Under the pieces are notes generated by a model. The model was not told the DNA's origin, made no database searches, and saw nothing but the letters and a program-made list of their open reading frames with translations. A stretch of 64,000 nt of DNA, taken from Liolophura sinensis (lineage: Eukaryota > Mollusca > Polyplacophora > Chitonida > Chitonidae). Positions within the stretch are counted from its first letter, which is position 1; every line of letters starts with the position of its first letter. Of the stretch, positions 7,901-60,466 are shown in pieces. The stretch covers positions 5,328,373 through 5,392,372 of the forward strand of contig NC_088306.1 in assembly GCF_032854445.1 (NCBI RefSeq), read 5' to 3'. A program made the position numbers and the translations under genes.

Positions 7901-10900
7901 CGGCCTGATGTTCATCTAACTCACATTTCCGACCCCAGTCCACCCCCTGTGTGATAGTCCACCCCCTGTGTACTAGTCCACCCCCTGTATGCTAGTCCAC
8001 CCCCTGTGTACTAGTCCGCCCCCTGTGTGATAGTTCACCCTCTGTGCGCTAGTCCACCCCCTGTGTGCTAGTCCACCCTACTATACCATATAATGACATA
8101 TGAAATGTGTCTACCCGTCTGTGTTGTAGCGGAAGTGAAGGAAGACAAGCCTGATAGATGTACCATTACATTCCACTTGGATGGGCTGACCAGAAAAGAC
8201 CAAGTGGAGGCCTCCATACTAGATAGGTAGAGATGTAACACACACCTGCTCTGAGAAAGCCAGATGCCACAGAGAAAGTGCTTAATGAAGAAGAAAACAT
8301 AAAAATCATGCCAAAATCAGATGAAAGAGCATTAAAGCTTATTTGCATATTTGGTCTTCAGTATTTTTTTGACCTTGTCGTTTTCAGGGAAAATGGTATT
8401 TAGAAATATTTTTGTATGGTGGGTATTTAGGACCACCATTGGTATTTATCGTCATTGAATAATAATGTTCTATATAAGGATGTGAAATATGTGTAATAAA
8501 TGTATTTTAATGTAATTGTTTTGTTTTGGATTTTGTCTGAATTATGATAATATTTATGAATACATTAAAAATATAAATATGACCAAAATCCAGGTGAAAA
8601 AACCAAACTCTAGCACAAATATATTTATTAAACATGTTACATCATCACTTTTAATATTATTACACTCAAAAATATTGAAGACCTTGTTTGCTTTTAACTT
8701 ATCGCGCTCTTTCATCTGGACTTCTACATTTTCTCCACCTTTGATGCCACCTGTAACATGCACTCGACTAAACTTCTGTCATTGTCTGACACCTGTCCAC
8801 AATCTGTTTTCACTTGCTCAGCTAATGACGCTGCCAGGTACATACATGTACTTGCCATATATGTATACACAGTCTGGTCTTCCTCTAGGGGTAAATGGCT
8901 TCAGTAATCTTCAGTCACACATGGTCATGTGACATCCTTCTGTCTCGTCAATAACCGTGAATGAATATTCATACCTTTCATATTTTTGAGTATCTGTTTT
9001 TGTTTTTGTTTTTGTTTTTTTGTGGGAAGTACATGTACATGTAGGAGGTCATAAGCAGTAGACGGAAAATATGATTGTTACCGATTTATTTAGTTTATTT
9101 ACGACTTTAAAGAACGACCAAATTTCAAGGCCAAACACATTTTTGTTACACCTGCAAAATGAGTTCCTTTTCTAAAAGTTTTTTACACCTCAGTAATCTT
9201 CTCGGAGTTCTGTTGATTGGCACATACATGTCAGAGCAGTTATGACATCAAAACTATGGATTGGTTATTTCTGCAGGCGGCTGACTGTACGGACTGAGGT
9301 CAATGGAAAGTTACACGAGGTACGACCTGTATTCTCAGGGGATGTTCAACAAGGGAAGTTAGAGCCCAAGGTGAGTTTGAGGCCTTGACTGTGATCTAGA
9401 GCCAAAGGTGAGTTTAAGGCCATCATTGTGGTCTAGAGCCCAAGGTGAATTTGAGGCCTTCATTGTGGTCAAGAACCAAAGGTGAGTTTGAGGCCTTGAC
9501 TGTGGTCTAGAGCCAAAGGTGAGTTTAAGGCCATCATTGTGGTCTAGAGCCCAAGGTGAGTTTGAGACCTTGATTGTGGTCAAGAACCAAAGGTGAGTTT
9601 GAGGCCTTGACTGTGGTCTAGAGCCAAAGGTGAGTTTGAGGCCTTGACTGTGGTCTAGAGCCAAAGAAGAGTTTGAGGCTTTCATTGTGGGGTAGAGCCA
9701 AAGGTGAATTTGAGGCCTTCATTGTGGCGTAGAGCCAAAGGTGGGTTTGAGGCATTCATTGTAGGTTAGAGCCAAAGGTGAGGTTGAGGCCTTCATTGTA
9801 GGTTAGAGCCAAAGGTGAGTTTGAGGCCTTCATTATGGGGTAGAGCCAATAGTGAGTTTGAGGCCTTCATTGTGGTGTAGAGCCAAAGGTGAGTTTGAGG
9901 CATTCATTGTGGCGTAGAGCCAAAGGTGAGTTTGAGGCCTTCATTGTAGGTTAGAGCCAAAGATGAGTTTGAGGCCTTCATTGTGGTCTAGAGCCAAATA
10001 CGAGTTTGAGGCCTTCATTGTGGTCTAGAGCCAAAGATGAGTTTGAGACCTTCATTGTGGTGTAGAGCCAAAGGTGAGTTTGAGGCCTTCAGTGTGATCT
10101 AGAGCCAAAGATGAGTTTGAGGCCTTTAGTGTGATCTAGAGCCAAAGATGAGTTTGAGGCCTTCATTATGGGGTAGAGCCAATAGTGATTTTGAGGCCTT
10201 CATTGTGGTGTAGAGCCAAAGGTGAGTTTGAGGTCTTCATTGTGGTCTAGAGCCAAAGGTGAGTTTGAGGCCTTCATTATGGGGTAGAACCAATAGTGAG
10301 TTTGAGGCCTTCATTGTGGTACAGAGCCAAAGGTGAGTTTGAGGCCTTCATTCTGGTGTAGAGCCAAAGGTGAGTTTGAGGCCTTCATTGTAGGTTAGAG
10401 CCAAAGGTGAGTTTGAGGCCTTCAGTGTGATCTAGAGCCAAAGATGAGTTTGAGGCCTTCATTATGAGGTAGAGCCAATAGTGAGTTTGAGGCCTTCATT
10501 GTGGTGTAGAGCCAAAGGTGAGTTTGAGGCCTTCAGTGTGATCTAGAGCCAAAGATGAGTTTGAGGCCTTCATTATGGGGTAGAGCCAATAGTGAGTTTG
10601 AGGCCTTCATTGTGGTGTAGAGCCAAAGGTGAGTTTGAGGCCTTCATTATGGTGTAGAGCCAAAGGTGAGTTTGAAATCTTCATTGTGGTCTAGAGCCAA
10701 AGGTGAGTTTGAGGCCTTCATTGTGGTGTAGAGCCAAAGGTGAGTTTGAGGCCTTCATTATGGTGTAGAGCCAAAGGTGAGTTTGAGGTCTTCATTGTGG
10801 TCTAGAGCCAAAGGTGAGTTTGAGGCCTTCATTGTGGTGTAGAGCCAAAGGTGAGTTTGAGGCCTTCATTATGGTGTAGAGCCAAAGGTGAGTTTGAGGT

Positions 10901-59000: not shown

Positions 59001-60466
59001 TAAAAGATTACTGAAATAATGTTCTCAAAAATTCCTTCCTTCTGGTGAACATGAGGAAAAACAGGTGATGTGACGTCAAGAGTTCCTAGAGACTGTCAGT
59101 ATGGCCCATAAAGTCCACCATAGAATTCAAATATCTGAATGCCTTTCAAAATAAATGCAAGTATTTTTACACAAAGTTTTCAGTTCTCTGTATGATGAAC
59201 CTTATTTCATATTTTAGCTTTCTTTTACTTTAACATTTATTCTACTTACGCACGGAACACAAGAATATAATGTCACAAAATGAGCAATATATGTAAATTA
59301 ATTCAACACGGAGCATCAACAATGGAACAGCTCCCTTATTGTGCCTTATTGTGATTCACATGTATGCAAAAGGGAAGCTCAGCATATGTAGTACATTTTA
59401 AAATACCATCACGGACATTTAGCTTAACACTGCTTTCACTGTTAGACACTAATGTTGACTCAAGGTATAACACTAGCTAAAATCTAGTGGTAAAGACTGG
59501 TAGAGAGTGGTACAAGGTGCTACATCCCTAGTGGTAAGGAGTGGTACAAATGGCTACCTACCTACTGGATTAGAGTGATACAAGTTTTACCTATGCACTG
59601 GTAAAGAGTGGTACAAGTGGTTACATTCCTAGTGGTAAAGAATGGTACAAATGGACACCTACCTTGTGGTAGACAGTGGTACAAAAAGAAGTGGTTATTA
59701 ACCTACATGTAGTTGTACGAACTGTTTATAACTGTCTAGTGAAAAAGAGTGGTACAAGTGGTTACATTCCTAGTGGTAAAGAATGGTACAAATGGACACC
59801 TACCTTGTGGTAGACAGTGGTACAAAAAGAAGTGGTTATTAACCTACATGTAGTTGTACGAACTGTTTATAACTGTCTAGTGAAAAAGAGCAGTACAAGT
59901 GGTTAGCTACCTATTTATAAATCGTGGCACCAAATGGTTACTGACCTCATGGTAAAGAGTGGTACAAGTGGTTACCTATCTATTTGTAAATAATGGCACA
60001 AATGGTATACCTACCTGGTTGTAAAGAATGGTACAAGTGGCTATCTACCTATTTGTAAATAGCTTTAGAAGTGGTTACCCACCTAGTGGTAAATAATGGT
60101 ACAAGTGGTTATCCACCTAGTGGTGAAGAATGGTACAAGTGGTTACCTACCTATTTGCAAAAAGTGATACAAATGGTTACCCACCTATGTGGTAAGGTGT
60201 AGTACAAGTGGATATCTACCTATTTTAAAAAGTGATACAAATGGTCACCCACCTATATGGTAAGGTGTAGTACAACTGGATATCTACCTAGTGGTGAAGA
60301 GTGGTACACATGGTTACCTACCTAGTGGTGAAGAGTGATACACATGGTTACCTACCTAGTGACTGCATATTCCCTGAGACCATTATGAAGGCTCATAGCT
60401 GAAAAGGTGCCTATACAACCACGTAGTCGTCGGTCACGCCCCATTTTCCAGGTGACAAATAAAGGG
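56014..60466 (-). CDS. AMMECR1: AMMECR1 homologue, last four exons (5' part outside the window)
   Basis: AMMECR1 is a deeply conserved protein with an AMMECR1 domain, found from archaea to human; its biochemical role is unsettled. Exons on the minus strand: 60466-60356, 58509-58395, 57186-57096, 56180-56014; all introns GT-AG with matching phases (2, 0, 1). The signature [20 protein letters not shown] is in the first, then [19 protein letters not shown] with [13 protein letters not shown], then [15 protein letters not shown] with [13 protein letters not shown], and [17 protein letters not shown] with [17 protein letters not shown]. The 160 or so residues align throughout with the C-terminal two-thirds of the human domain. 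The frame stops at TGA 56014-56016 with a tail shorter than the human one. The upstream exon should end in TA before the PLFVTWK block; I find none in the window. Two of its introns begin with donor-derived minisatellites. Confidence 0.95.
56783..57013 (+). mobile_element. SINE family A, near full length, AMMECR1 last intron
   Basis: GTTGCTGTGAGTTCAAGTCC, CATGCTGGCTTCTTCTCCGG and GTGAAATATTCTTGAACGAA with an AAATAAGTAAAT tail. Opposite orientation to the gene. Confidence 0.85.
57295..58400 (-). repeat. 24-bp minisatellite built on an AMMECR1 donor, about 45 copies
   Basis: The exon ends ...GATTGGGAG|GTAATGTGTG at 58395. The intron repeats CTGGGAGGTAATGTGTGGAG plus ATAA every 24 bases, at first as GGGAG|GTA or GGGAG|GCA, later drifting to forms such as GATGACTGGGGAGGTAGTGT. 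The first five units keep the coding frame (8 residues each, for example VMCGDNWE). Stops appear only in the fifth unit. Confidence 0.92.
58510..59469. other. AMMECR1 intron, unique part
   Basis: AT-rich sequence between the acceptor of the exon at 58509 and the donor array. Words such as GCATCAACAATGGAACA (58660 and 59311) repeat once, suggesting an old duplication. Confidence 0.45.
59470..60365 (-). repeat. 34-bp minisatellite built on another AMMECR1 donor, about 26 copies
   Basis: On the coding strand the exon end is GCAGTCACTAG|GTAGGTAACC, and the intron repeats CACTAGGTAGGTAACCATGT plus GTATCACTCTTCAC. Copies nearest the exon are the best match; distant ones degrade. A block of about 141 bases (59607-59747 and 59748-59888) is duplicated almost exactly inside it. 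Reading past the true donor gives an immediate TAG. Confidence 0.9.

Follow-up and report, generated by a model that had tools for sequence, protein, structure and literature searches.

Four introns of the chiton Liolophura sinensis begin with minisatellites whose repeat unit contains the exon/intron boundary itself, that is, the last bases of the exon together with the 5' splice site (donor). All four lie in a 64,000-nucleotide stretch of contig NC_088306.1 (positions 5,328,373 to 5,392,372), which is called the window hereafter. Minisatellites across exon/intron boundaries have been published from amphioxus under the name of mirages (excerpts of PMC3087553 and PMC3902484), and a preliminary description of this DNA was thus mistaken in assigning the pattern to no named class. 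We consider it probable that the chiton arrays are mirage-type minisatellites in a phylum new for the class, and that they are tolerated and evolve neutrally. A local tandem duplication would by chance have taken in an exon end and its donor. With the exon-proximal copy intact, splicing and protein would remain unchanged, and the surplus copies, being intronic, would then expand, contract and mutate like an ordinary minisatellite.

Anatomy of the four donor-junction arrays

The arrays were detected by Tandem Repeats Finder (TRF) and the register of the junction within their copies by wrap-around alignment, while exons were mapped across the window from open frames, splice signals and homology. 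Twelve coding introns lie fully inside the window; a further, putative intron, in the 5' untranslated region at about 3542-4890, was placed by splice consensus only. As the preliminary description had it, TRF and the exon maps put four arrays with units of 37, 83, 24-25 and 34 bp at exon/intron junctions (Table 1), the exons ending at 9370 (+), 46722 (+), 58395 (-) and 60356 (-). The three host loci are MIS12, AMMECR1 (two arrays) and an unnamed open reading frame, gene 1. Across the four arrays the donor GT is retained in 94 of 124 aligned copies, the true donor being included in each per-array count. One 61-bp and one 86-bp copy stand among the 83-bp units of MIS12, and the array at 57294-58400 occupies most of a 1208-bp AMMECR1 intron.

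When the 30-mer across each junction was searched for nearby, allowing at most 9 mismatches in 30, it recurred at 4 of the 12 coding donors, with 41 (9370), 9 (46722), 1 (60356) and 6 (58395) copies, and at none of the remaining 8 donors or the 12 3' splice sites (acceptors). The two AMMECR1 arrays are only weakly supported by this search, with one copy and six copies that each carry 9 mismatches, and their in-register periodicity comes from the wrap-around alignment. The copies nearest the exon had been said to match the junction best, which is the case in one array of the four (Spearman rho of mismatch against distance -0.16, -0.23, 0.04 and 0.80): junction identity declines with distance only in the array at 59496-60361 (rho 0.80), and in that at 57294-58400 the most homogeneous copies are the farthest from the exon.

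Protein homology fixes three of the four array junctions, those of MIS12 and both of AMMECR1. MIS12 has seven exons on the plus strand and was identified by Pfam Mis12 (7.5e-26) and by PDB 5lsj, "Protein MIS12 homolog", aligned over residues 77-255. AMMECR1, on the minus strand, was identified by Pfam (1.1e-44) and by exon-by-exon alignment with mollusc orthologues; four of its exons are in the window and exon 1 sits 1.15 kb past the window end, with a donor free of any array. The junction of gene 1 is less certain. This gene has four coding exons on the plus strand, drawn from open frames and splice consensus; its Pfam CS-domain match is weak (E 0.062, under the cut-off), and a homologue search found none. 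The conserved exon order is intact, and in three of four cases homology assigns the junction to the exon-proximal donor though so many copies keep GT. The first donor is therefore presumably the one normally used at MIS12 and at both AMMECR1 junctions, which supports the tolerance that the preliminary description had offered as one option.

When translation is continued beyond the exon, three of the arrays bring a stop codon after 1, 5 and about 21 residues, and in the 24-bp array (57294-58400, minus) the frame stays open for five units with DNWEVMC-like repeats. Since this unit remains in frame with the exon, the use of early decoy donors would insert in-frame repeats.

The MIS12 model and a possible role of the arrays

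Exons 1-4 of MIS12 correspond to the first 198 residues of the NCBI L. sinensis protein (LOC135479377) with 100% identity. After exon 4 that protein ends in the tail SSLSKAQKSAGRS, whose encoding DNA lies inside the array and is single-copy in the window, and the conserved exons 5-7 are missing from the model. The Pfam score rises from 66.3 bits for the NCBI model to 91.7 bits for exons 1-7, which indicates that the conserved MIS12 protein skips the array. Such arrays would be a concrete cause of broken automatic gene models, MIS12 being the case here. For AMMECR1 (56017-60466, minus), no match labelled as the L. sinensis protein was among the best 120 of 2001; an identical protein should head the ranking, so its model may be broken or may fall outside the searched length range.

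A selected function, in which donor arrays recruit the U1 small nuclear ribonucleoprotein (U1 snRNP) or tune how the host transcripts are spliced or retained, seems very unlikely to us. It could draw on the GT kept in most copies (Table 1, true donors counted) and on the acceptor that the NCBI MIS12 model takes within the array, but in none of the four arrays do the nine donor columns exceed the remainder of the unit in conservation. They rank 21/37 in gene 1, 68/83 in MIS12, and 13/24 and 12/34 in AMMECR1, which also tells against selection for many donors, another suggestion of the preliminary description. Moreover, three arrays have units of 37, 83 and 34 bp, so that use of a single decoy would shift the frame, and RNA folding, considered as a way to conceal the decoys, gave nothing special in the two of four arrays tried (z -1.26 and 0.08). 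The arrays are probably without function.

Tandem arrays are prone to misassembly, and the NCBI MIS12 model does end prematurely in an array. Nevertheless, an assembly or gene-model artefact is highly improbable, as protein homology fixes three of the junctions and the mean HiFi read length exceeds every array in the window. The assembly comprises 609.5 Mb in 632 scaffolds, with a mean read of 8.3 kb at 14x, according to the excerpts of PMC11068029; the chiton described there was later renamed L. sinensis (PMC12441733).

Frequency of junction arrays in the window and elsewhere

This is an array-rich region: 23 arrays make up 18% of the window, arrays cover 17% of the surrounding 264 kb, and within the 12 introns they account for 6,524 of 18,377 bases. 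At least three near copies were found at 103 of 600 random positions, so that lying within an array is unremarkable here; by the same cut 3 of the 12 donors and none of the 12 acceptors qualified.

As an independent sample we took myosin-head and kinesin exons from elsewhere in this genome. It used 76 of the 81 exon matches to myosin heads, leaving out 5, and, from the table of 132 kinesin matches, the first 40 that were free of internal stops. Exon edges were set by a home-made score and low-scoring edges were discarded, leaving 69 donors and 70 acceptors for myosins and 31 donors and 36 acceptors for kinesins. Junction arrays were present at 5/69 donors and 2/70 acceptors of myosins and at 0/31 donors and 1/36 acceptors of kinesins, whose flanks of just 190 bp could let long units escape detection. 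Pooled, 5/100 donors and 3/106 acceptors do not differ (Fisher P=0.49). When the exonic part was capped at 30 nt, five arrays were counted (3 at donors, 2 at acceptors), where the array edges over the initial 150 bases of the introns predict 2.64 (P=0.13).

The units of these junction arrays elsewhere in the genome measure 31-140 bp, and those straddling acceptors (L044, L069 and L086, in myosin and kinesin matches) have units of 32, 95 and 64 bp. In the myosin locus L055 (C3:25740387-25741581) the unit is 124 bp long, with about 115 bases from the exon and 9 from the intron, and is repeated about five times; its junction 24-mer occurs four further times with zero mismatches, and the duplication is apparently very recent. 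Three of the eight junction arrays (L055, L073 and L069) stem from matches with in-frame stops, which makes their edges less sure.

Several observations weigh against a neutral origin. Of the eight arrays in the 12 introns, four straddle a donor, against 0.18-0.43 expected. The corresponding position test gave P values of 2.2e-4, 1.4e-4 and 6e-6 at an allowed overhang of 30, 26 and 11 nt, the last setting being narrower than one observed overhang (26 nt), and P=3.8e-5 with arrays free to sit in any intron; the test left out AMMECR1 intron 1, which extends beyond the window and holds two unanchored arrays. The window was picked for this striking pattern and the test is post hoc, so these P values are optimistic. 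The window also exceeds the sample (4/13 donors, the 13th being that of AMMECR1 exon 1 outside the window, against 5/100; P=0.01). Set against a background at 90-300 bp, the 69 myosin donors show five arrays where 0.72 are expected (P=9e-4), a test that overstates the excess because overlaps of up to 130 nt were set against a 30-bp bin. Seven more myosin arrays start within 90 bp of a donor, which neutrality leaves unexplained; together with four whose ends fall no more than 60 bp from an acceptor, they suggest that array edges may crowd towards exons generally. Finally, since the NCBI MIS12 model enters the array by splicing, some of the copies there may be in use.

The straddling arrays of the window and the myosin donors with their close neighbours would suit a donor-targeted process, in which donor junctions are hot spots of tandem duplication, for instance through co-transcriptional structures or repeated donor-like microhomology, and seed arrays preferentially. 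The preliminary description had proposed a mechanism of tandem duplication at the 3' ends of exons. Against this, acceptors carry arrays too and not clearly less often, the local excess (5 against 2.6 expected) is not significant, the kinesins gave no donor case, albeit in short flanks, and the amphioxus cases occur at both boundaries (excerpts of PMC3087553). Preferential origin at donors is possible, but as the explanation of these arrays we find donor targeting unlikely.

Alternatively there may be no junction effect at all, one window among many having happened to hold four arrays. The sample fits such uniform placement (P=0.13), whereas the window itself does not (P 6e-6 to 2.2e-4); and since junction arrays recur in other genes, L055 with its long exonic share included, the structures are real at any rate. 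This account, which overlaps the favoured reading because the latter is neutral as to rate, is a tentative one that we find rather doubtful. What had been called four cases in 13 introns, far above chance, stands within the window, post hoc, and did not extend to the independent sample. The 4/12 donors of the window are a local cluster in an array-rich region. Returning to tolerated mirages, we infer that the frequency of arrays at junctions comes mostly from a genome very rich in minisatellites together with tolerance.

Two further attempts added little. A forward simulation anchored 126 of 5468 arrays (2.3%) against 2.7% under uniformity; it contains no anchoring force and merely restates the null. 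A home-made exon finder run on the 264 kb predicted 21 exons and recovered 1 of 11 listed known exons; the sole donor array among the 21 was that of MIS12, with 0/17 outside the window, and the finder is too insensitive to use.

Other features of the window

The array at 60991-62080 in AMMECR1 intron 1 has a 29-bp unit in about 38 copies and lies at no mapped junction. By eye, a dispersed short repeat with a core like 'ccgtactcaagaatatttcac' is present in many copies in both orientations and resembles a short interspersed nuclear element (SINE). An open frame of 169 amino acids at 26547-27056 (minus) may be a fragment of a reverse transcriptase, judged by eye from a motif.

Table 1 Coordinates of exons, arrays and repeats in the window (a slash marks the splice junction).
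Feature	Position	Strand	Details
Gene 1 exon 3 (weakly CS-domain-like)	9277..9370	+	3' end AAG/GTGAGT
Gene 1 donor array	9360-10934	+	unit 37 bp, 42.6 copies, 11 nt exonic; GT in 35/43 aligned copies
MIS12 exon 4	46579..46722	+	3' end GCA/GTAAGT
MIS12 donor array	46697-47620	+	unit 83 bp, two overlapping TRF rows, 26 nt exonic; GT in 10/11 copies
Array stretch taken as last coding exon in NCBI model LOC135479377	46996..47037	+	acceptor ...gttacacag/ ends 46995; stop codon ends 47037
MIS12 exon 5, homology-backed splice partner of exon 4	48130..48250	+	
AMMECR1 exon	58395..58509	-	donor GAG/GTAATG
AMMECR1 donor array	57294-58400	-	unit 24/25 bp, several TRF rows, 6 nt exonic; GT in 31/45 copies
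AMMECR1 exon (GLREYAVTS)	60356..60466	-	donor TAG/GTAGGT
AMMECR1 donor array	59496-60361	-	unit 34 bp, 6 nt exonic; GT in 18/25 copies
Unanchored comparison array, MIS12 intron 2	42800..43965	+	
Unanchored comparison array, MIS12 intron 3	45570..46176	+	
Dispersed SINE-like repeat copies	5330-5480, 6750-6900, 15200-15470, 28970-29190, 63750-64000, others	both orientations	by eye

Comparison with known systems

Introners are repeated sequences that bear splice sites and are dispersed and mobile. The chiton units differ from them and from other mobile elements in that BLAST within the window found no match for any of the four units outside its own array.

Mirages are known from Branchiostoma Adh3 and the globins BflGb6 and BflGb9 (excerpts of PMC3087553 and PMC3902484). 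According to the excerpts of PMC3087553, their units range from 10 to 160 bp, they occur at both boundaries, they vary between haplotypes and they are reportedly without effect on regular splicing. The chiton arrays fit the definition, in that the unit holds the exon-intron boundary and the array starts at the true boundary (less surely in gene 1). Their units in the window (24-83 bp) fall inside the published range, and many copies, though not all, keep the splice dinucleotide. As to the escape of array ends from homogenisation, a further trait of mirages, a distance gradient was seen in one chiton array of the four. Both junction types carry arrays in the chiton genome outside the window, whereas the four inside it are all at donors. 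The chiton is a mollusc and the published cases cited here are from lancelets; copy number reaches about 42 in the chiton, whereas amphioxus BflGb6 has 3 units in one haplotype and 6 in another (PMC3087553, in part). For amphioxus there are also data on splicing, haplotypes and somatic instability, while the chiton arrays are known from the sequence of one assembly.

Text searches of the open-licence literature, most of whose hits were left unopened, returned no recognisable report of mirages outside lancelets. Junction-spanning units are not described in the excerpts of repeat papers on earthworm, Caenorhabditis elegans and abalone (PMC6905558), and in those of PMC7710358 the word "mirages" occurs in a reference title only. 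The abalone TSSK1-like gene does carry a long intronic array in a mollusc, a polymorphic minisatellite with a 27-bp unit in intron 3, and whether its unit contains a splice junction is not stated in the excerpts of PMC6905558.

A close likeness is found in lancelet PGBD5, where 60-bp and 108-bp repeats fall on splice sites of both kinds, 5' and 3', and the gene model reads repeats as exon, as the NCBI model of chiton MIS12 does; those repeats, however, have just 2-7 copies and belong to another species and gene (excerpts of PMC3902484). Human internal tandem repeats likewise duplicate AG/GT sites, and such copied splice signals could give rise to introns or exons (PMC2812944, in part). The Rogers model, as cited in the excerpts of PMC3087553, derives intron or exon change from tandem duplication of AG/GT sites; in contrast, the chiton arrays lie inside pre-existing introns and no gain is demonstrated.

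One may go further and suppose that in some invertebrate genomes splice junctions, donors above all, are favoured birthplaces of minisatellites. The process would have arisen, or lasted, separately in the two groups, lancelets and chitons, and would supply ready splice sites for new exons, the array exon of MIS12 being an early example; we regard this as improbable. As a possible source of new exons and introns the arrays are testable, and they offer natural tests of how the spliceosome chooses the first among dozens of near-identical donors. The occurrence of mirages in a mollusc, if it holds, would make them a product of minisatellite-rich genomes and no lancelet oddity.

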